Source: Metasolibacillus sp.
GTDB taxonomy: Bacteria; Bacillota; Bacilli; Bacillales_A; Planococcaceae
Assembly (NCBI RefSeq): GCF_025291715.1
Contig: NZ_JAMBIZ010000001.1
Location: forward strand, 124,001 to 188,000
Reading direction: 5' to 3'
Length of the DNA: 64,000 nucleotides
Position 1 is the first letter of the stretch; each line of letters opens with the position of its first letter. A program made the translations under genes and the position numbers. Under the pieces are notes generated by a model. That model made no database searches. It saw only the letters and a list, made by a program, of their open reading frames with translations, and had not been told where the DNA came from. Shown piece by piece: positions 10,482-29,594 of this stretch.

Positions 10482-11684
10482 ATGGATGTTATGCAAAGAG
10501 CGTTACAATTACATGAGGAATATTGTGGGAAGATGGAAATCAAAGCACGTGTGCCGCTTGCGGATGCCTATGATTTAAGCTTAGCTTATTCACCTGGTGT
10601 AGCAGCGCCTTGTATTGAGATTGAAAAAAATCCATCTCTTGTTTATGACTATACAATAAAAGGTAATTTTGTAGCCATTGTCACAGATGGGACAGCGGTG
10701 CTTGGACTCGGTGATATAGGACCTGAAGCTGCATTACCTGTAATGGAGGGCAAGGCATTATTATTAAAGCGCTTTGCCAATGTGGATGCTGTACCGATTT
10801 GCTTAAATACAAAAAATGTAGATGAGATTGTGCAAACAGTAAAGCATCTTGCGCCAACATTTGGCGGGATTAATTTAGAGGATATTTCGGCACCGCGCTG
10901 CTTTGAAATTGAGGATCGACTGCGTGCTGAGTGTGGAATTCCTGTCTTTCATGATGACCAGCATGGCACAGCTATTGTCGTTGCCGCAGGGCTGATGAAT
11001 GCGCTGAAAATTGTGCACAAGGAATCAAGTGAGGTCAAGGTCGTGATTAACGGGGCAGGGGCAGCGGGGATTGCCATTTTGCGTATTCTTGTGCAAATGG
11101 GCTTTACGAATATATTTATGTGCGATACGACAGGTATTATTTATAAAGGACGAAAAGAGGGCATGAATGCGATGAAAGAGAGCATTGCCCATTTAACAAA
11201 TAGCGGATTGCAGCATGGACAGCTTGCGGATGCGTTAGTAGGAGCGGATGTCTTTATCGGCGTGTCTGTTGCCAATTTATTAACAGAGGCACATATTGCT
11301 TCGATGAATGCTGACCCGATTGTTTTTGCTTTAGCGAACCCAAACCCAGAAATCACCTATGAAAATGCCAAAGCATGGGGTGTGCGTGTAATGGGCACAG
11401 GGCGTTCTGACTATCCGAATCAAATTAATAATGTGCTGGCGTTTCCAGGCGTCTTTCGTGGTGCATTAGATGTAAGAGCAACGGACATTAACGAGACGAT
11501 GAAGTTGGCTGCGGTAGAGGCTATTGCTTCATTAATAACAGAGTCGGAGCTGCATGAGGAGTATATCGTACCGAAGGCATTAGATGAGCGCGTTGTAGGT
11601 GTTGTCGCAAAGGCGGTTGGCAGCGCTGCAATTGATACAGGTGTATCAGATTTGTTTCAGCAGCCGATAACAGCATACGAATAG
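10482..11684 (+). CDS. NAD(P)-dependent malic enzyme (decarboxylating)
   Basis: Oxidative decarboxylation of malate to pyruvate in the cytoplasm, 400 residues, the short bacterial form. Visible motifs: YSPGVAAPC, the catalytic region around TDGTAVLGLGDIGPEAALP, LEDISAPRCF and FHDDQHGTAIV for metal and malate binding, then the cofactor fold GAGAAGIA. I prefer the ATG at 10482 over that at 10476, because AAGGAG at 10468-10473 is 8 bases from the former and only 2 from the latter. The gene is monocistronic between its own promoter and a terminator. Resembles B. subtilis ytsJ/maeA-class enzymes; the cofactor preference cannot be read with certainty. Confidence 0.9.
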   Translation: MDVMQRALQLHEEYCGKMEIKARVPLADAYDLSLAYSPGVAAPCIEIEKNPSLVYDYTIKGNFVAIVTDGTAVLGLGDIGPEAALPVMEGKALLLKRFANVDAVPICLNTKNVDEIVQTVKHLAPTFGGINLEDISAPRCFEIEDRLRAECGIPVFHDDQHGTAIVVAAGLMNALKIVHKESSEVKVVINGAGAAGIAILRILVQMGFTNIFMCDTTGIIYKGRKEGMNAMKESIAHLTNSGLQHGQLADALVGADVFIGVSVANLLTEAHIASMNADPIVFALANPNPEITYENAKAWGVRVMGTGRSDYPNQINNVLAFPGVFRGALDVRATDINETMKLAAVEAIASLITESELHEEYIVPKALDERVVGVVAKAVGSAAIDTGVSDLFQQPITAYE

Positions 11685-19692: not shown

Positions 19693-20163
19693 ATGATTCA
19701 ATTGCTAATTGATGCAGATGCCTGCCCAGTTATTGATTTGGCGCTATCTGTTTCATCTCGATATAAGATAAAACCTATCTTGTTTTGCGATACTTCACAT
19801 CGCATTGAGCGTGATAATGTAATAACGATTGTCGTGCCAAAGGGACCTGATTCAGTTGATTTTAAGCTAGTGAATGCGCTTTCTAAAAATGATATTGTCA
19901 TAACGGGGGATTATGGATTAGCTGCCATGTGTTTGGCGAAAGGCGCATTTGTTGTGGACCATAATGGCAGAGAAATGACTGCCGATAATATAGACCAGTT
20001 GCTCGCTTTTCGTTATGAGAGTGCAAAATTCCGCCGAGCAGGTGGAAGAACGAAAGGACCCAAAAAGCGCACCGAGGAAAATAATATTGCCTTCAAAAAA
20101 TTTTTTCAACAAATTTGTGAACGGGCTGTCAAATTGAAAGGAGAAATGAATAATAATGCATAA
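19693..20163 (+). CDS. YaiI/YqxD family protein (UPF0178, DUF188)
   Basis: A protein of 156 residues with the family's DADACPV motif near the N-terminus, then FCDTSHR, DSVDF, VITGDYGLA and the C-terminal FRRAGGRTKGPKK. The arrangement of conserved aspartates suggests a PIN-like nuclease fold, an inference from the family. I place the start at the ATG at 19693 (AAAGGGG 9 bases upstream) rather than the TTG one codon earlier. It overlaps the D-serine dehydratase start by 8 bases, so the two are translationally coupled. Confidence 0.85.
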   Translation: MIQLLIDADACPVIDLALSVSSRYKIKPILFCDTSHRIERDNVITIVVPKGPDSVDFKLVNALSKNDIVITGDYGLAAMCLAKGAFVVDHNGREMTADNIDQLLAFRYESAKFRRAGGRTKGPKKRTEENNIAFKKFFQQICERAVKLKGEMNNNA

Positions 20164-21424
20164 TTCATTCGAAAAAAGACTAGAAAATTTACCGCTTATT
20201 CCATCTTTACAACGAGCTGAGCCTGTCATTTGGTTGAACGATCAAGTAAATAATGAACAAAGCTTCCCTTTTTCAATGGCAATGGTTTATGAGGCGGAAG
20301 CAAGATTGAAGCGTTTTGCGCCATATTTGCAAGACGCTTTCCCAGAAATACAAGACGGAATCATTGAATCGCCTATTATCGAAGTCGAGCAAATGAAGGC
20401 ATATTTAGAAAATGCTTATGCAACGAAAATTGAAGGAAAGCTTCTATTAAAATGTGATCATGCATTACCAATTGCAGGCTCAGTAAAGGCGCGTGGTGGT
20501 ATTTATGAAATATTAAAGCATGCCGAAAGCTTAGCAATTGAACACGGGTTATTATCGAAGGAAGATGATTATCGCAAATTGCATGATGACCGCTTCCGCC
20601 AATTTTTCCAAAACTATAAAATTGCAGTGGGCTCGACAGGAAACTTAGGATTAAGCATTGGCATTATTAGCGCAAAGCTAGGCTTTCATGTAACAGTGCA
20701 TATGTCGATGGATGCGAAGGAATGGAAAAAGCAATTGCTGCGAGATTTAGGTGTCACAGTGATAGAGTATGAGGCGGATTATAGTGAGGCTGTCAAACAG
20801 GGGCGTTTAGAGGCAGAGCAGGACGCTACATGCCACTTTGTTGACGATGAAAATTCACTTGATTTATTCGCAGGCTATGCGGTTGCAGCGCTACGTGTGA
20901 AGGCTCAGCTAGAGGCACAAAACATAGCGGTTGATGAGGAACACCCGCTATTTGTTTATATTCCATGTGGTGTTGGTGGGGCACCTGGTGGGATTAGCTA
21001 TGGCTTGAAGCAGTTATATGGTCAAAATGTTCATATTTTCTTTGCCGAGCCAACGCAATCGCCATGCATGCTGCTCGGGATGATGACAGGCTTACATGAT
21101 GAAATTGATGTGGCACAAATCGGCTTAACGAATGAAACCGAGGCGGATGGGCTTGCGGTTGGGCGAGCGTCGAAATTTGTTGGCGCACAGATGGAAACGA
21201 TTGTGAGTGGTTGTTATACTGTAAAAGATGCGTTTTTATTTGAAAGTTTGCGAGAAATGTATAAGCGGGAGCATATTTTCATGGAGCCATCTGCACATGC
21301 AGGCTTTTTTGGCCTTATACAGCTAGCGGACACTTATTCACAGAAAAATGCCAATCATCTCGTCTGGTCAACAGGCGGCAATTTAGTACCAAATGAATGG
21401 CGCACGCATTATTTACAAAAATAA
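20156..21424 (+). CDS. dsdA: D-serine dehydratase (D-serine ammonia-lyase)
   Basis: PLP enzyme of 422 residues converting D-serine to pyruvate and ammonia. Lys111 in IAGSVKARGG is the expected Schiff-base lysine; STGNLG (160-165) binds the cofactor phosphate; GVGGAPGG is the glycine-rich loop. Length and N-terminal extension match DsdA rather than threonine dehydratases. AAAGGAG lies about 9 bases before the ATG. No dsdC regulator or dsdX permease is adjacent; instead it is coupled to a UPF0178 gene. A role in detoxifying D-serine from peptidoglycan turnover or the environment is likely. Confidence 0.9.
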   Translation: MHNSFEKRLENLPLIPSLQRAEPVIWLNDQVNNEQSFPFSMAMVYEAEARLKRFAPYLQDAFPEIQDGIIESPIIEVEQMKAYLENAYATKIEGKLLLKCDHALPIAGSVKARGGIYEILKHAESLAIEHGLLSKEDDYRKLHDDRFRQFFQNYKIAVGSTGNLGLSIGIISAKLGFHVTVHMSMDAKEWKKQLLRDLGVTVIEYEADYSEAVKQGRLEAEQDATCHFVDDENSLDLFAGYAVAALRVKAQLEAQNIAVDEEHPLFVYIPCGVGGAPGGISYGLKQLYGQNVHIFFAEPTQSPCMLLGMMTGLHDEIDVAQIGLTNETEADGLAVGRASKFVGAQMETIVSGCYTVKDAFLFESLREMYKREHIFMEPSAHAGFFGLIQLADTYSQKNANHLVWSTGGNLVPNEWRTHYLQK

Positions 21425-21445: not shown

Positions 21446-21796
21446 GTGATTATAACTGTTTTTATCGTCGGCTTTATAATGGCTGGCATATTAGACTTAT
21501 TATTAAGAAAGAAGTTCAAAATTGAAAAAAATGAAAGATTTATGGATCAATATATCAATAAAGCGCATTTTGTATTTGAAATTTTGCTCTGTGCATTTTT
21601 TATCGTCAATGTGGCAGTGAGGGGCTTTCCTGAGAAATATTTGTATTTTTTATTGTTTCTATTTTTCGGACTTGTCTTTGCAGTTCGCCTTGCGCTGGAA
21701 TATATCTTTAAAAAGGCACAACGAAAATATATTATTTCACTTGCTTATATGATTGTTTGTCTAGCTTGTGCGTTAACAATTTTATTGTTCTTATAA
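21446..21796 (+). CDS. Small membrane protein, DUF4181-like
   Basis: A protein of 116 residues with about four hydrophobic segments (about 2-18, 42-58, 67-85 and 96-116) separated by short basic loops. It resembles DUF4181 proteins of Bacillales in length and pattern; function unknown. The start is GTG at 21446 preceded by GAGGAG. It lies 21 bases after dsdA and 15 bases before cobQ, so it is probably part of one long transcript linking them. Confidence 0.65.
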   Translation: MIITVFIVGFIMAGILDLLLRKKFKIEKNERFMDQYINKAHFVFEILLCAFFIVNVAVRGFPEKYLYFLLFLFFGLVFAVRLALEYIFKKAQRKYIISLAYMIVCLACALTILLFL

Positions 21797-21811: not shown

Positions 21812-23293
21812 ATGGCACAATCCATTATGATTCAAGGCACTGCCTCGGATGTTGGGAAAAGCTTAATTTGCACAGCATTATGCCGCATTTTTGCAAACGA
21901 CGGATACCGTGTCGCCCCGCTTAAATCACAAAATATGGCACTCAATTCCTATATTACAGAGGATGGCTATGAGATTGGGCGTGCGCAAGGTGTGCAGGCA
22001 GAGGCGGCGCGCGTGAAAGCGACAACACAAATGAATCCGATTTTATTGAAGCCAAAGCAAAATATGCGCTCAGAAATTATTTTTAATGGCAAGCGTTATG
22101 TTGAAATGGATGCGATGGATTATCGAGAAAATTTTGTTGAGAAGGTTATGCCAGAGGTGGAAAAATTGCTGCGCTATTTGCAAGAGCATTTTGATGTGAT
22201 AGTGCTTGAAGGGGCGGGAAGTCCAGCTGAAATCAATTTAAAGGCACGAGATATTGCGAATATGCGCATGGCACATTTAGCAGATGCACCTGTTATTTTA
22301 GTAGCAGATATCGATCGTGGTGGGGTGTTTGCCACAATTGTTGGCACGCTTGCGTTGTTAGATGACGGTGAGAGGGCACGTGTCAAAGGTATCGTGATTA
22401 ATAAATTTCGCGGCTTGAAGGAGCTGCTTGATGACGGGCTCACTTGGCTAGAGCAGGAGACAGGCATTCCGGTTTTAGGTGTTATTCCGTATTTAGATGT
22501 ACCGATTGAGGCAGAGGATTCATTAGCATTATCATCATTGCGTTTGAAGCAGGCTGCAAAAGGGGAGTTTGCTATTGATGTAGCTTTTATTCGTCTACCA
22601 CATCTTGTCAATTTCACCGATATGGATCCACTATTAGAGGAACCTGGTGTTGGTGTACGTGTGGTAACGACAGTTGCAGAGCTTGGTAGCCCTGACCTTC
22701 TTATTTTACCAAGCTCAAAAAATATTGTTCATGATTTACAATGGCTAAAGGACGCAGGTCTTGCACAGGCAATTGTTCAACGTGCAACAAAAATTGTTGG
22801 TATTGGTACAGGCTATTATATGCTTGGTGCAACGATAATGAGCGAGCATAACCTGTACAAAGGGCTACAGTTACTGCCGCTACAGACAACGCTTTTACAA
22901 CAAGAGACGAAAAGGCAAGTAGCTGGCAGCATTATTGCAACAAAGGAGCAAATTGTTGGCTATGAAATGAACATAGGTGAAGTGACATTATTAAATGGAG
23001 CTATACCATTTATTCAATTGGCGGATGGGCATGACAATGGTGCTGTATTAGAAGATGGACATGTGCTTGGAACAACGCTACACCATCTACTGCACAACCG
23101 ACATGTCACGCGTCGCATGATGAACGAGATTCGTCAAGTGAAGAGGCTGCCGTTCATCAATGAACAGCTTCAAAGCGATGAAGAGCTGCGTGATCAAGCC
23201 TATGAATTGCTTGCACAGCACGTTCGTATGCACTTAAATATGGAAAAAATTTATGAATTTATGCAAATGGAGGAACGACATGCTGACGGTTGA
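21812..23293 (+). CDS. cobQ: Cobyric acid synthase, glutaminase cysteine replaced
   Basis: A protein of 493 residues that amidates the corrin ring side chains of adenosylcobyrinic acid diamide. The N-terminal synthetase half is intact: GTASDVGKS P-loop at residues 9-17, SQNMALNS, LEGAGSPAEINL and DIDRGGVFA. In the C-terminal GATase half the expected nucleophile segment GICGGYQMLG reads GIGTGYYMLG, placing Gly at residue 332 where the essential Cys (C333 of Salmonella CbiP, from memory) should be. The C-terminal region around GTTLHHLLH keeps a histidine. The enzyme may therefore use free ammonia or have another role. It is the first gene of a salvage-type cluster. Confidence 0.85.
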   Translation: MAQSIMIQGTASDVGKSLICTALCRIFANDGYRVAPLKSQNMALNSYITEDGYEIGRAQGVQAEAARVKATTQMNPILLKPKQNMRSEIIFNGKRYVEMDAMDYRENFVEKVMPEVEKLLRYLQEHFDVIVLEGAGSPAEINLKARDIANMRMAHLADAPVILVADIDRGGVFATIVGTLALLDDGERARVKGIVINKFRGLKELLDDGLTWLEQETGIPVLGVIPYLDVPIEAEDSLALSSLRLKQAAKGEFAIDVAFIRLPHLVNFTDMDPLLEEPGVGVRVVTTVAELGSPDLLILPSSKNIVHDLQWLKDAGLAQAIVQRATKIVGIGTGYYMLGATIMSEHNLYKGLQLLPLQTTLLQQETKRQVAGSIIATKEQIVGYEMNIGEVTLLNGAIPFIQLADGHDNGAVLEDGHVLGTTLHHLLHNRHVTRRMMNEIRQVKRLPFINEQLQSDEELRDQAYELLAQHVRMHLNMEKIYEFMQMEERHADG

Positions 23294-23948
23294 ACTAGGT
23301 GAGGAGCTACTTATTATTAAAAGTGAGCAGCCATTAAAAGTGTTAAGCTCGGCTATGCTGAATCCAGGGATTGGTCGTTATCAATATTTCGTCAATCGAA
23401 CGGTTGATAAAAATTATTATCCTGAGGATGCAAAGTGTGAGTATGAGCAATTTTTACAGCAATATACAATGCCCCTCCAGATGACAGTTGCGATGATGAC
23501 CGCGGTGCAGCAACGCTTTGTGATGAGGGAGCAATATGTGGATGGAGAAACTGCGATTGATGTTTTTATTACGGCAGGATTAGGCAATGCGGTCGATGTA
23601 ACACAATCCTATCAATATACATATAAGCCAGCCGTCGGAACGATTAATATTTTCGTTTTTGTGGATGGAGATATGAGCGATGAGGCGTTCATCCAAGCAT
23701 ATCATTGCATCATTGAGGCGAAGGTGAAAGTGCTGCATGAGCGTGGTGTTATAGATAAGCAAAGTGGCACAATTGCGACAGGCACGTCAACAGATAGCGT
23801 CGCTCTGGCGGTGATGGGGCGTGGTGAATTTCATGCATATGGTGGCTCAATTACTCGTTTAGGGGCGCTGATTGGCAAAGGTGTTGCGGCGACATTGCAT
23901 AAAGCGATTGATGGCTATGATGCTTATCAAAAAGGTGAGCTGCGATGA
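23280..23948 (+). CDS. cbiZ: Adenosylcobinamide amidohydrolase
   Basis: A protein of 222 residues. CbiZ cleaves the aminopropanol arm of adenosylcobinamide to give adenosylcobyric acid, so that incomplete corrinoids can be salvaged. Recognised by TAGLGNAVDV, GTINIFVFV, IIEAKVKVL, ATGTSTDSVALA and the C-terminal YGGSITRLGALIGKGV. The start is the ATG at 23280, 8 bases after GGAGGA and within the end of cobQ (14-base overlap), not the upstream in-frame codon. Its presence between cobQ and cbiB marks the operon as salvage-oriented. Confidence 0.85.
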   Translation: MLTVELGEELLIIKSEQPLKVLSSAMLNPGIGRYQYFVNRTVDKNYYPEDAKCEYEQFLQQYTMPLQMTVAMMTAVQQRFVMREQYVDGETAIDVFITAGLGNAVDVTQSYQYTYKPAVGTINIFVFVDGDMSDEAFIQAYHCIIEAKVKVLHERGVIDKQSGTIATGTSTDSVALAVMGRGEFHAYGGSITRLGALIGKGVAATLHKAIDGYDAYQKGELR

Positions 23949-24898
23949 ACATCGTCATTGTTGCCATCGCAATTTTGCTTGATCGTCTTGTTGGAGATCC
24001 ACCTAGGCTACCGCATCCTGTTATATGGATTGGCAAGCTTATTTCATTTTTTGAGCAGCGCTGGAATCATGGGACGGCACGTGTTTTAAAGGGAGCTATG
24101 ACAGCAATATTTGTTGTTAGTTTAACAGGAATTATTGTTTGGGGGCTTATTTATTTAGCTGGACTACTGTCTGTTTGGCTTGCAGTAGCGCTAGAAATAT
24201 TGCTTATTGCGATAGCGATTGCACAAAAGAGCTTGAAGGATGCGGCAATGGTCGTTTATGATGCGCTGCGACGAGGCGATATGCAGGAGGCACGCATAAA
24301 GCTTGGCTGGATTGTTGGACGTGATACAGCACATTTAGAGGAGCCTGAAATTGTCCGAGGTGTTGTTGAAACCGTTTCTGAAAACACAAGTGATGGCATT
24401 ACAGCGCCAATTTTTTATGCGCTGTTATTTGGTGCAACAGGCGCGTGGGTCTATAAGGCAATCAACACGCTTGATTCGATGATTGGCTATCGCAATGAAC
24501 GCTATGGGGAGTTTGGTCGCTTTGCTGCAAGACTTGATGATGTGGCCAACTTTATTCCGAGTCGTCTTACAGGCTTGTGCATTTTATTATTTACGAAAAA
24601 TGAAGGACCTTTTGCATTAAAGGAGCGCCTGCGCTATTGGCTACGCGATGCGAAAAAGCATCCAAGCCCAAATAGTGGCTATTTAGAGGCAGCAACCGCC
24701 TTGCAGCTAGGCATTCGTTTAGGTGGAGAAAATACCTATCAAGGGAAAACCTCATTTCGTGCCTACATGGGTGAGCCTATAGTGGAACTAAGCAAGGTAC
24801 ATATTTTACGTGCTATTCAGCATTTATATGCGGTGACAATACTTTTTACGTTATTGATTGGAGGCATGATGTATGCGATATCCCGCACATGGAGCTAA
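23945..24898 (+). CDS. cbiB: Adenosylcobinamide-phosphate synthase
   Basis: Polytopic membrane protein of 317 residues that attaches the aminopropanol (phosphate) arm to cobyric acid. Family motifs: LLDRLVGDPPRLPHPVIWIG at the N-terminus, GRDTAHLEEPEIVRGVVET and VSENTSDGITAPIFYAL, then NTLDSMIGYRNERY. Hydrophobic segments at about 50-95, 150-170 and 290-312. It overlaps cbiZ by ATGA-type coupling and cobD by 26 bases. Confidence 0.93.
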   Translation: MNIVIVAIAILLDRLVGDPPRLPHPVIWIGKLISFFEQRWNHGTARVLKGAMTAIFVVSLTGIIVWGLIYLAGLLSVWLAVALEILLIAIAIAQKSLKDAAMVVYDALRRGDMQEARIKLGWIVGRDTAHLEEPEIVRGVVETVSENTSDGITAPIFYALLFGATGAWVYKAINTLDSMIGYRNERYGEFGRFAARLDDVANFIPSRLTGLCILLFTKNEGPFALKERLRYWLRDAKKHPSPNSGYLEAATALQLGIRLGGENTYQGKTSFRAYMGEPIVELSKVHILRAIQHLYAVTILFTLLIGGMMYAISRTWS

Positions 24899-25940
24899 TC
24901 CAGCTACATTATACCAGCAGCTACAACTAGAGATGCCTGCACAAATTGTTGATTTAAGCGAAAATGTCAATTTTTTAGGGCCACCAGCAAGCTTTCACAA
25001 GGTGTGGTCAGCAATATTTGAGCAAATTGCGCTCTATCCACATGAGGGTGCTGAGCCTTTGCGTAGCGACTTGGCGAGACATCATCATGTGCTAGCAGAG
25101 CATGTTGTCATAGGCAATGGCGCAGCGGAAATCATAATGGCATTAGCAAAACGCTATAGGTCAAAGCCTGTTATTATTGTGGAGCCTTCTTTTTCTGAAT
25201 ATAAGCGAACGTTAATGCAGCAGCATGCAAGCATTCAATCGCTTATTGTGGAGGAGCTAACGAGCTATGTACTACCAATGGAACGATTAAAGCAAGCGAT
25301 GATAGGCGCAGAGGCGGTTTATATTTGTAATCCGAACAATCCAACTGGCGTGGTGACGCCTAGGTCAAAGCTGTTGGAATTGCTACAATATGGGCAACAA
25401 GTAGGCTGTGAGTTAATTGTAGATGAGGCATTTATGGATTGGACGGATGAATCACAATCCGTTATTGATTTGGTAGCGTCATTCAACAATCTAGTTGTAC
25501 TGCGCTCGATGACAAAAATGTATAGTATGGCAGGTGTTAGACTAGGCTATGCGATTACACAACACGCTGCTAATTTAAAGCTAGAGCTGCCGCATTGGAA
25601 TGTCAGTGCGCCCTCGATGGCGCTTGGGATGCAGGCATTGCAAGAAGCGGAATTTTGCGAAAATTCAAGGCAACAAGCGACAGCAATGCGCACAAAAGTG
25701 ACACATTGGCTAAAGGAGCATGGCTGTACTGTGACAAATAGTGAAACAAACTATATAGCATTTCGTTTGCCTTCTTGCTATGACCCAACAGAGTTTTATT
25801 TTGCATTATTGAAAAAAGGCATTGTATTGCGCCACACGCAAAATTTTGTAGGCATGGACGGAGCATGGTTCCGCCTTGCCCTAAAGGAGCCATATAAAAT
25901 GACCGCCTTCCAACAAGCGATGGAGCAATTTTTTCGATAG
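24873..25940 (+). CDS. cobD: L-threonine-O-3-phosphate decarboxylase-like aminotransferase fold enzyme
   Basis: Fold-type I PLP enzyme of 355 residues. CobD makes (R)-1-amino-2-propanol phosphate, the substrate CbiB attaches to cobyric acid. Motifs: an N-terminal HGANPATLYQQ and DLSENVNFLGPP typical of CobD, NPNNPTG for PLP contact, DEAFMDW, and the PLP lysine in RSMTKMYSMAGVRLGY. Histidinol-phosphate aminotransferase is the sister family, but context and the N-terminus favour CobD. GGAGG lies 8 bases before the ATG at 24873. Later genes of the nucleotide loop (cobU, cobS, cobT) are not in this window. Confidence 0.85.
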   Translation: MRYPAHGANPATLYQQLQLEMPAQIVDLSENVNFLGPPASFHKVWSAIFEQIALYPHEGAEPLRSDLARHHHVLAEHVVIGNGAAEIIMALAKRYRSKPVIIVEPSFSEYKRTLMQQHASIQSLIVEELTSYVLPMERLKQAMIGAEAVYICNPNNPTGVVTPRSKLLELLQYGQQVGCELIVDEAFMDWTDESQSVIDLVASFNNLVVLRSMTKMYSMAGVRLGYAITQHAANLKLELPHWNVSAPSMALGMQALQEAEFCENSRQQATAMRTKVTHWLKEHGCTVTNSETNYIAFRLPSCYDPTEFYFALLKKGIVLRHTQNFVGMDGAWFRLALKEPYKMTAFQQAMEQFFR

Positions 25941-26862: not shown

Positions 26863-26952
26863 TATTAAAGTATAGTAAAGAAATAAAAATATTAAGAAAA
26901 GATAGCATTTTCATTTAAAAGTATGATACAGTAATAGCACAATTGAATAATG

Positions 26953-27127
26953 TGTAAGATTTGGTGCCAAGCGAAAGCTTGACTTAAAAGGGAAGTCGGT
27001 GTGAATCCGACGCTGTCCCGCAACTGTAAATCGGAGCAAATCACAAATGCCACTGGTGAGAAACTGGGAAGGCTGTGAGGAGCGATGATGATAAGCCAGG
27101 AGACCTGCCAACATCTAGTACACACCA
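26953..27127 (+). promoter_or_regulatory. Cobalamin riboswitch (AdoCbl aptamer)
   Basis: Conserved elements occur in order: GGTGCC (26963-26968), AAGGGAAGTCGGTGTGAATC (26998-27007 region) with GACGCTGTCCCGCAACTGTA, and the B12 box AGCCAGGAGACCTGCC (27094-27109). A closing segment (TGTGTAAG and TACACACC) pairs at the base. It lies directly upstream of metE with terminators between, so B12 should reduce metE transcription. Confidence 0.95.
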
Positions 27128-27192
27128 AATACCTACGTGGAAATAGGTGGTGAAAAGTAACAATTGTTACGAGTACGAGCGATCAAACAATA

Positions 27193-27222
27193 GCGAATGG
27201 AGCACCCATTTCGTGTTTTTTT
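27193..27222 (+). terminator. First terminator in the metE leader
   Basis: GCGAATGG (27193-27200) pairs with CCATTTCGT (27206-27214) with one bulge and is followed by seven T's. Its weak stem suggests a role in switching or a backup. Confidence 0.5.
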
Positions 27223-27239
27223 GCAATGTTCGAATTTAT

Positions 27240-27272
27240 AGCCATTTTCCATCAAAGGAAAATGGCTTTTTT
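27240..27272 (+). terminator. Second, strong terminator in the metE leader
   Basis: AGCCATTTTCC (27240-27250) pairs perfectly with GGAAAATGGCT (27257-27267), followed by six T's. It is the likely expression platform of the B12 riboswitch, or constitutive attenuation below it. Confidence 0.85.
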
Positions 27273-27302
27273 GCGCACTTTAAAAATGACAAAGAGAGGT
27301 TG

Positions 27303-29594
27303 ATGAAAAGCATGGCATATGTAGCAACAGCAATTGGTTATCCGTATATCGGAGAAAATCGCGAATGGAAAAAGTCATTGGAGAAGTTTTGGAAGCAGGA
27401 ATTAACAGAGGACGAATTTGTCACACAGCAAAAGGAAATTCGTTTAAGCCGTATTGAAAAGCAATTACAGCTTGGCTTGAACGTAGTTTCGGTTGGCGAT
27501 TTTACCAACTATGACCGCATACTAGATACAGCAGTAATGTTTGGACTTGTACCAAAGCGCTTTAATTGGCAAGGTGGCAAAGTCGATTTAGCAACATATT
27601 ATGCGATGGCACGTGGAAATAAAGAGGCCGTTGCCTGTGAAATGACGAAATGGTTTAATACAAATTATCACTATATTGTGCCAGAATATGAGGGACAGAC
27701 ATTACAGCTCACAGAAAATACTTTATTGAAGCATTTTGTTGAAGTAAAGGCAGCATTTGATATTACAGCAAAGCCAACGCTTATTGGTCCTTATACATTT
27801 ATCAAGCTAACGAAAGGCTATGACCGCGTATCGAAGGCATCCTTTGTCTTAGCCCTATTACCTTTGTATATACAAGTAATCAAGGAATTAGCAGCAGCTG
27901 GCGTACAATGGGTGCAGCTTGAAGAGCCTGCCCTTGTTACCACGTTAGATCAAGAGGAAATTCAACTTGTACAAGAAATATATGGACAGCTTACAACAGC
28001 AGCACCTGAAGTGAACATTATGCTGCAAACGTATTTTGAGTCGTTATCAGCCTATGAGCAGCTTGTTCAGCTACCAGTGCAAGGTATCGGACTTGATTTT
28101 GTGCATGGCTATCAGGATAATATGCAGGCATTGCGTCAGCATGGCTTCCCAAGCGACAAAGTGCTAGCGGCAGGTGTGATTAACGGACGTGATATTTGGC
28201 GTGCAAATTTAGCCGAAGTGAAGACAATGATACAGGCAATCGAGCAGCTTTCAGGTGCAAAGGAGCTATGGATTCAGCCTTCTTGTCATTTACAGCATGC
28301 ACCGATTACAACGAAATTTGAGACAAAACTAGATAAGGTGCTGCTCAATGCACTCGCTTTTGCAGATGAAAAAGCAGTAGAAATTGTAGAGGTGGTTGCC
28401 AATTTACAAGGACAAGAATCAACGGCTATTTCTGCTAGTATGAAGGCGATTGAAGCTTTGAAAAATCATCCGATTCGCAACAACAAAGTAGTTCAGCAAG
28501 CGGTTCAAACAATTGAACAAGCAGATTTTGAGCGCAGCACGCCATTTACAGAACGTTTAGCTATTCAACAAAAGGCACTGCAATTGCCGCTTTTCCCAAC
28601 AACAACAATTGGTAGCTTCCCACAGTCTGATGAGGTCAAGCAAAAGCGCAACGCATGGCGCAAAGGCAATTTAACAAATGAGGAGTACACTGCCTTTTTA
28701 GAGCAGGAAACAGCACGCTGGATTGCCATCCAAGAGGAGCTGGATATTGATGTGCTTGTGCATGGCGAGTTTGAGCGTACAGATATGGTGGAGTATTTTG
28801 GTGAAAAGCTAACAGGCTTCGCATTTACAACGAATGCATGGGTCGTGTCCTATGGCTCTCGCTGTGTCAAACCACCGATTATTTATGGTGATGTAGCATT
28901 CGAGGCACCCATGACAGTGAAGGAAACGGTGTATGCACAAAGCTTAACAAAGCGTCATATGAAAGGGATGTTAACAGGCCCTGTAACGATTTTAAATTGG
29001 TCGTTTGTGCGTGATGATATTGCACGTAAAGATGTCACATATCAAATTGCCTTAGCACTACGAAAAGAAATTGAATCTCTGGAGGAAGCAGGTATTTCGA
29101 TTATTCAAGTGGATGAGCCTGCATTACGTGAGGGGTTACCGCTGCGTAAAGAAAATTGGAATGCTTATTTAGAATGGGCAGTAGGGGCATTTAAATTAGC
29201 AACAGCAAGCGTCAAAGATGAAACGCAAATTCATACACATATGTGCTATTGCGAGTTCAACGATTTCATTGAGCCAATTAGCGCCTTAGATGCTGATGTT
29301 ATTTCCATTGAAACATCGAGAAGTCATGGCGAATTAATTAACTCATTGCAGCATAACCCATACGATAAAGGCATCGGCTTAGGCGTTTATGATATTCATA
29401 GCCCCCGTGTGCCAAGCGAAGCAGAAATGTTAACAATTATGCAGGACAGCTTGCAAGTGTTAGCACGCAATCAATTTTGGGTCAATCCAGACTGTGGCTT
29501 AAAAACGCGTAAAGAGCCTGAAACAGTGGCGGCACTTGCCAATATGGTGCAAGCAGCCAAAACATTGCGTCAGCAAATCGAGCAAGTGATTTAA
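27303..29594 (+). CDS. metE: Cobalamin-independent methionine synthase
   Basis: 5-methyltetrahydropteroyltriglutamate-homocysteine methyltransferase of about 763 residues. It methylates homocysteine without B12. The N-terminal half has the usual TAIGYPYIGENREWK opening; the C-terminal catalytic half has TTTIGSFPQS, HGEFERTDMVEYF, zinc ligands in HTHMCYCEF and a late NPDCGLKTR. The true start is the ATG at 27303 or 27312; frames further upstream run through the riboswitch terminators and cannot be coding. Control by the B12 riboswitch fits a cell that also uses or salvages B12. Confidence 0.95.
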   Translation: MKSMAYVATAIGYPYIGENREWKKSLEKFWKQELTEDEFVTQQKEIRLSRIEKQLQLGLNVVSVGDFTNYDRILDTAVMFGLVPKRFNWQGGKVDLATYYAMARGNKEAVACEMTKWFNTNYHYIVPEYEGQTLQLTENTLLKHFVEVKAAFDITAKPTLIGPYTFIKLTKGYDRVSKASFVLALLPLYIQVIKELAAAGVQWVQLEEPALVTTLDQEEIQLVQEIYGQLTTAAPEVNIMLQTYFESLSAYEQLVQLPVQGIGLDFVHGYQDNMQALRQHGFPSDKVLAAGVINGRDIWRANLAEVKTMIQAIEQLSGAKELWIQPSCHLQHAPITTKFETKLDKVLLNALAFADEKAVEIVEVVANLQGQESTAISASMKAIEALKNHPIRNNKVVQQAVQTIEQADFERSTPFTERLAIQQKALQLPLFPTTTIGSFPQSDEVKQKRNAWRKGNLTNEEYTAFLEQETARWIAIQEELDIDVLVHGEFERTDMVEYFGEKLTGFAFTTNAWVVSYGSRCVKPPIIYGDVAFEAPMTVKETVYAQSLTKRHMKGMLTGPVTILNWSFVRDDIARKDVTYQIALALRKEIESLEEAGISIIQVDEPALREGLPLRKENWNAYLEWAVGAFKLATASVKDETQIHTHMCYCEFNDFIEPISALDADVISIETSRSHGELINSLQHNPYDKGIGLGVYDIHSPRVPSEAEMLTIMQDSLQVLARNQFWVNPDCGLKTRKEPETVAALANMVQAAKTLRQQIEQVI

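Follow-up and report, generated by a model that had tools for sequence, protein, structure and literature searches.

Degenerate glutaminase site in a CobQ paralogue of a Metasolibacillus salvage operon and repeated glutaminase loss in corrin amidotransferases of Bacilli

The cobQ operon and the glutaminase site of its CobQ

The 64-kb stretch of Metasolibacillus DNA analysed here (the window) contains a cobalamin gene cluster with the operon order cobQ-cbiZ-cbiB-cobD, in agreement with the original prediction that cobQ is coupled to these three genes. The operon and its upstream neighbours are arranged as follows, with the residues of interest in CobQ given by codon.

20156-21424, + strand: dsdA, D-serine ammonia-lyase (PRK02991, 637 bits), upstream of cobQ and co-directional with it
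21446-21796, + strand: gene of a DUF4181 membrane protein (PF13789, 48.7 bits), by synteny the upstream edge of the site of cobQ insertion or loss in congeners
21812-23293, + strand: cobQ paralogue, intact frame of 493 codons (493 residues) with a degenerate glutaminase half; NCBIfam name cobyric acid synthase
21812-22531, + strand: ATP-dependent synthetase half, residues 1-240, conserved; PF01656 and PF13500 over their cut-offs
22577-23104, + strand: GATase_3 domain, residues 256-431 (PF07685, 111 bits), predicted to be catalytically dead
22712-22714, + strand: codon 301, Gly to Ser (G301S); Gly in 128 of 130 other alignment rows
22724-22726, + strand: codon 305, Thr to Ile (T305I); Thr in 127 of 130 other rows
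22805-22807, + strand: codon 332, GGT, Gly where the nucleophile Cys is expected (C332G)
22808-22810, + strand: codon 333, adjoining the nucleophile position, Gly to Thr (G333T); Gly in 128 of 130 other rows
22817-22819, + strand: codon 336, Gln to Tyr (Q336Y); Gln in 128 of 130 other rows
22970-22972, + strand: codon 387, His to Asn (H387N); His in 128 of 130 other rows
23081-23083, + strand: codon 424, catalytic His424 kept; His in all alignment rows
23280-23948, + strand: cbiZ, adenosylcobinamide amidohydrolase (PF01955, 162.5 bits)
23945-24898, + strand: cbiB (TIGR00380, 293 bits)
24873-25940, + strand: cobD-like PLP enzyme (threonine-phosphate decarboxylase), for which the best NCBIfam match, TIGR01140, reaches 265.7 bits, below the cut-off of 290.55

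The likely start of cbiZ is the ATG at 23280, which overlaps the cobQ stop; the mechanical start of the open reading frame is at 23253. The product of dsdA is an ammonia-releasing enzyme, and gaps of 15-21 bp lead from its gene via the DUF4181 gene to cobQ; congeners keep dsdA without cobQ. A search upstream of the cobQ operon gave no riboswitch match. The sole cobalamin riboswitch of the window (RF00174, 124.5 bits, 26945-27126, + strand) lies ahead of metE (27147-29594), and a cobalamin riboswitch precedes metE in two congeners as well.

The window CobQ scores above the curated cut-offs of its family, with 562.7 bits for PRK00784 (cut-off 273) and 473.6 bits for TIGR00313 (cut-off 309.9). 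Its C-terminal GATase_3 domain is present and lacks the catalytic cysteine: the motif encoded at 22799-22830 reads GIGTGYYMLG, and the canonical form is GICGGYQMLG. Full-length CobQ sequences from Bacillota, cyanobacteria, Fusobacteria, Chloroflexota, and other groups were aligned (132 rows, some of the Cys rows being duplicate fetches); the nucleophile column contains Cys in 128 rows, which bears out the claim that Gly332 replaces the nucleophile. Glycine occurs there only in the window, in strain G002 of the same species, and in duplicate copies of those two. Every full-length CobQ fetched from outside the window species, including those of Solibacillus, Lysinibacillus, and Sporosarcina, has Cys, and the expectation that these relatives would share the glycine as a clade feature was rejected. 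Two assemblies, one of 83 contigs and the other of a single contig, agree on Gly332, so a sequencing error is an unlikely source of it and was discarded. No other cysteine near residue 332 stands in as a substitute nucleophile, and neighbouring active-site residues, Gly333 and Gln336 among them, are changed too. A search by sequence for relatives with solved structures found none.

A second CobQ, the history of the gene, and its unequal halves

The window genome also encodes a canonical CobQ (G000:C8:36241-37716), which is 68% identical to the window protein and has both the nucleophile Cys and a GTYLHGIF motif. Its gene lies in an operon for de novo anaerobic B12 synthesis, together with cbiA, cbiG, cobA, sirC, btuR, and btuCDF, and CbiC is encoded nearby. 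The window CobQ is thus a paralogue and not the only cobyric acid synthase of the cell. In strain G002, which has a one-contig assembly, the Gly form is the sole CobQ (98% identical to that of the window), and searches of this genome for CbiC and CbiA found neither. Because G002 lacks both CbiC and CbiA, the Gly copy is independent of the de novo pathway and in that strain is limited to scavenged corrinoids. Its place in the cobQ-cbiZ-cbiB-cobD operon also suggests that the Gly copy serves salvage.

The same locus in three congeners has the arrangement dsdA-DUF4181-cbiZ-cbiB-cobD, without cobQ. In G003 the gap holds a cobQ scar (L156, 8777-8888), in which a 43-bp internal piece of the gene (86% identical, E 8e-11) is fused to its last codons. 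The scar indicates that cobQ was present in the common ancestor of the window strain and G003 and was then deleted in G003. No trace of cobQ was found at the syntenic locus in G001 and G004. The interval between DUF4181 and cbiZ in G001 is occupied by foreign genes over about 3 kb (L155:6185-9300), regulator-like and flavoprotein dehydrogenase-like. Since these congeners manage without the gene, the window cobQ may be in the course of being lost.

The two halves of the window CobQ differ in how far they have changed. The synthetase half is 80% identical to that of the Cys-bearing CobQ encoded elsewhere in the window genome and keeps 64 of 65 near-invariant columns, the exception being F37L, where G002 has Phe; the original prediction of an intact synthetase half thus holds. 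The C-terminal half has lost 6 of 22 near-invariant columns, and its PF07685 score is 111 bits, against 204.5 bits for the canonical copy. Cys-bearing CobQ rows never have more than two departures from near-invariant columns in either half. The two halves were placed in separate trees. For the synthetase half, the stem branch of the window species measures 0.24 changes per site, against 0.12 for the canonical CobQ of the genus; in the tree of the GATase half, the two values are 1.15 and 0.20. The ratio of GATase to synthetase branch is 4.8 in the window CobQ versus 1.7 in the sister canonical copy, and the synthetase half of the window CobQ evolves about twice as fast as that of the canonical copy.

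The cobQ genes of the window and G002 differ by eight non-synonymous and nine synonymous changes (dN/dS 0.26), and the non-synonymous changes are fewer than expected under neutrality (p = 0.006). For the GATase half alone, five of nine changes are non-synonymous, which is not significant (p = 0.12). For every 100 missense single-base changes, about 5.6 should create a stop codon; an unconstrained GATase half with about one substitution per site would therefore be expected to contain stops, and the frame is open in both strains. A full-length fold is predicted with a mean pLDDT of 90.5, and its nearest folds are CTP synthase, GatD, and dethiobiotin synthetase. The synthetase half is under purifying selection. 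The GATase half has lost its catalytic constraint, yet its frame has stayed open and it is predicted to fold.

Glutaminase loss in CobQ and CbiA of relatives

A wider pattern, to which the window CobQ belongs, is found in relatives, outside the 64-kb window. In a family-wide search of 261 genomes, CobQ is present in 206 and CbiC in 82, so CobQ is often retained without corrin-ring synthesis. Full-length, near-canonical CobQ proteins are encoded in five genomes without CbiC (G120, L203; G097, L204; G144, L205; G158, L206; G151, L207), where the gene is solitary or part of cobQ-cbiB-cobD-cobC.

A second type of CobQ consists of frames of 272-347 residues in which the GATase domain is missing after the synthetase half. 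By row count it occurs in 91 genomes, in genera g2, g11, g13, and g17, and its gene is part of a salvage operon, btuF-btuC-btuD::cbiZ-cbiB-cobD-cobU-[cobQ]-cobS-cobC-..., in which relatives from g5 and g12 encode a full-length CobQ with Cys at the corresponding place. The C-terminal helix of CobQ is retained in the short proteins (YDxWAxHxKxHxDW versus YExLxQHVRxHLDM), which shows that the GATase domain was excised internally. These loci are:

L120-L129, L134-L136, L200-L202, L208, and L219: GATase-less CobQ in B12 salvage operons

At L134 (G008), cbiB-cobD is duplicated in tandem and two long open reading frames (456 and 663 residues) contain CobQ-like pieces; this assembly is flagged as 7% contaminated. 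In trees, the short CobQ of G292, from another family, is sister to a CobQ from Cohnella and represents a second, independent excision; a single origin of all GATase-less CobQ was rejected (AU p = 0.0004). Trees also rule out that the window CobQ belongs to the GATase-less clade, as it falls among the canonical CobQ proteins of Bacillales and outside both short lineages. PRK00784 scores both of the short proteins tested above its cut-off as cobyric acid synthase, and the loss of the domain is therefore masked.

There is no full-length CobQ in 86 of the 91 genomes with the short form, and among these CbiC is encoded only in G190, G216, and G219. The de novo corrin operon of G190 and G216 comprises cbiX, cbiH, cbiJ, cbiC, cbiD, cbiET, cbiL, cbiF, cbiG, and cobA, and G219 has the same set. 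All three genomes encode CbiA, and the GATase-less protein is their sole CobQ. All that is left of the canonical cobQ in G219, between btuR and a methyltransferase gene, is a scar that begins MKAIMI-stop (L199, about 10545-10648). The genes of these pathways look intact; if the pathways work, four amides would be made in these three genomes without a glutaminase of CobQ's own. The short-CobQ operons showed no separate GATase subunit that could take the place of the lost domain. The genome of G182, which has a short CobQ, gave no GATase_3 match, and the only matches in G190 and G216 are a Cys-less CbiA and one below the cut-off.

The CbiA of G190 and G216 has the motif AEGGGFSYL in place of AECGGFMYL. 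CbiA was compared in 93 family genomes, in two of which (G065 and G247) the matches did not cover the nucleophile site. Glycine is present in exactly seven (G176, G190, G203, G206, G216, G217, and G218), all of which have only GATase-less CobQ. The exchange thus occurs in seven of the eight family genomes that combine CbiA with GATase-less CobQ only, and in none of the 84 scorable others; the Fisher p value for co-loss is 1e-9 (7/1 versus 0/83), a figure that ignores relatedness. The eighth genome, G219, has a full-length CbiA with Cys retained. G292, from the other family, has both Gly-CbiA and GATase-less CobQ, and its loss of Cys may or may not be separate from that in genus g17 (AU test p = 0.31, with a long branch). 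The loci with Cys-to-Gly CbiA are:

G190: L179
G216: L178
G176: L223 and L309
G203: L224
G206: L225
G217: L227
G218: L226 and L310
G292: L220:4578-5966, - strand

The near-invariant columns altered in Gly-CbiA number 9-14 of 75 in the GATase half and, in g17, 1-4 of 97 in the synthetase half. This half-specific loss is the same signature as that of the window CobQ. The glutaminase site of corrin amidotransferases has thus been lost repeatedly and in one half only, and the loss co-occurs in both enzymes of the pathway; G190 and G216 have a full de novo corrin operon with no glutaminase in either CbiA or CobQ. In G176, G218, and G292, CbiC is missing and single operons encode BtuCDF (in some with a CbiZ-BtuD fusion) along with CbiA and BtuR, which suggests the uptake and completion of under-amidated corrinoids.

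Ammonia as a candidate amide donor

CobQ and CbiA (cobyrinic acid a,c-diamide synthase) are described as dependent on glutamine; CobQ amidates the b, d, e, and g side chains, and enzymes of the CbiA/CbiP type accept ammonia in vitro. We consider it probable, with moderate confidence, that the window CobQ is a paralogue from a late-stage or salvage operon, with a degenerate glutaminase and a constrained synthetase, which amidates corrins with free ammonia. The protein would no longer hydrolyse glutamine, would use free ammonia to amidate corrin side-chain carboxylates, and would retain the dead GATase domain as a scaffold only, as in carbamoyl phosphate synthetase I (CPS1). Its role in salvage may be to complete or repair the amides of scavenged, incompletely amidated corrinoids ahead of CbiB. 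The loss of the active site here and the excision of the GATase part in many relatives indicate that free ammonia probably feeds a part of the B12 pathway. In Bacilli, corrin amidation would then have moved off glutamine several times independently: in the window CobQ, in CobQ proteins whose GATase domain was excised (at least two events), and in CbiA by the Cys-to-Gly exchange, so far found only beside GATase-less CobQ. The window protein itself is not the strongest support for ammonia; that comes from the relatives in which a full pathway is combined with a CbiA and a CobQ that both lack the glutaminase. We lean, slightly beyond even chances, towards the broader view that in several lineages of Bacilli the whole of corrin amidation by CbiA and CobQ (six amides) moved from glutamine to ammonia by repeated, coordinated glutaminase loss (C-to-G in CbiA, excision or C-to-G in CobQ), with the window protein as an independent case in progress. 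Sporosarcina is ureolytic, and an ammonia-rich life such as this could explain why glutamine hydrolysis became dispensable.

The original prediction offered free ammonia, another glutaminase, or a role confined to salvage as possible explanations. Free ammonia and salvage remain the leading ideas; neither a second, canonical CobQ in the genome nor the pattern in relatives had been foreseen. The prediction also took the full-length frame as an argument against decay, which is weakened by the scar in G003 and by the absence of the gene from G001 and G004. The window gene could be a paralogue in decay under relaxed selection, either after the gain of a canonical CobQ with the de novo operon or in a life of pure salvage with cobyric acid already supplied by CbiZ, with the glutaminase lost first and the gene being deleted from the genus. 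The congeners without cobQ, the long GATase-half branch, and redundancy with the canonical copy of the window genome are consistent with decay, and the case of the window protein itself, which rests on two strains, may be one of slow decay. Nevertheless, we regard decay as rather unlikely, because relaxation is seen in one half only, the frame has remained intact in two strains despite the expected rate of nonsense changes, and the substitutions between the strains show purifying selection.

It is improbable that the window CobQ has left amidation altogether and that its DTBS-like ATPase half now serves a different ligation or the handling of salvaged corrinoids, with a different amine donor, as a chaperone, or as a regulator of CbiZ or CbiB. 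Such a change would suit the CbiZ operon, where textbook cobyric acid needs no more amidation, and the many family genomes that have CobQ and no CbiC. The synthetase half has, however, kept the invariants of CobQ, and in G190, G216, and G219 a GATase-less sole CobQ accompanies a complete de novo operon, so that the b, d, e, and g amides are still needed if the pathway works. The conserved synthetase half and the retention of CobQ in many genomes without CbiC also agree poorly with the related claim that salvage through CbiZ makes amidation superfluous. The least probable of the readings is a supply of ammonia in trans, from another glutaminase or a local producer such as the CbiA GATase or D-serine ammonia-lyase, channelled through the dead GATase domain. 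Such channelling would agree with a GATase domain that is full-length and predicted to fold, with the co-directional dsdA upstream of cobQ, and with the pairing of a full-length, Cys-bearing CbiA with a GATase-less CobQ in G219. It is opposed by the lack of CbiA in G002, by the congeners that have dsdA-DUF4181-cbiZ without cobQ, by the Cys-less CbiA of G190, G216, and G292, and by G182, which combines a short CobQ with zero GATase_3 domains.

A replacement of glutamine by free ammonia would give a textbook B12 step a second, ammonia-fed form that evolved several times. It would also provide natural glutaminase-free synthetases for studying the ordered synthesis of four amides at one active site, and these might also be simpler components for producing B12. 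That CobQ persists where corrin-ring genes are missing hints at a salvage function not yet described, for example restoring amides on corrinoids that are damaged or incomplete. Under the annotation models, Cys-less and GATase-less CobQ bear the same name as the canonical enzyme. The literature searched, with few subscription journals included, yielded no description of a glutaminase-less CobQ or CbiA, and the loss has apparently gone unnoticed so far.

The window CobQ shares with typical CobQ/CbiP cobyric acid synthases the family scores, two-domain layout, synthetase invariants, and cbiB and cobD as neighbours; it differs from them in the missing nucleophile Cys, the degenerate glutaminase site, the neighbouring cbiZ, and its presence without CbiC in G002. 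MurT/GatD and CTP synthase have the nearest folds, GatD being a CobQ-type GATase and CTP synthase a DTBS-like synthetase joined to a GATase, but both are active glutaminases with other substrates. Some NAD synthetases (NadE) are ammonia-dependent and lack the glutaminase domain present in other members of their family; they parallel the short CobQ as synthetases without a glutaminase domain, and differ from it in the synthetase fold and the type of glutaminase domain. A genomic prediction had earlier placed DUF71-B12, a protein of ammonia-ligase type, in B12 salvage clusters; unlike the window CobQ, it belongs to the PP-loop family and was proposed as a CbiZ substitute (PMC3541065). CPS1, in which Ser occupies the position of the catalytic Cys in the GATase-like domain, is ammonia-specific and uses free ammonia (PMC4655335). 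The window CobQ resembles CPS1 in its full-length GATase domain with the nucleophile replaced and in its conserved synthetase, although the two synthetases are unrelated and the use of ammonia by the window CobQ is deduced from its relatives.
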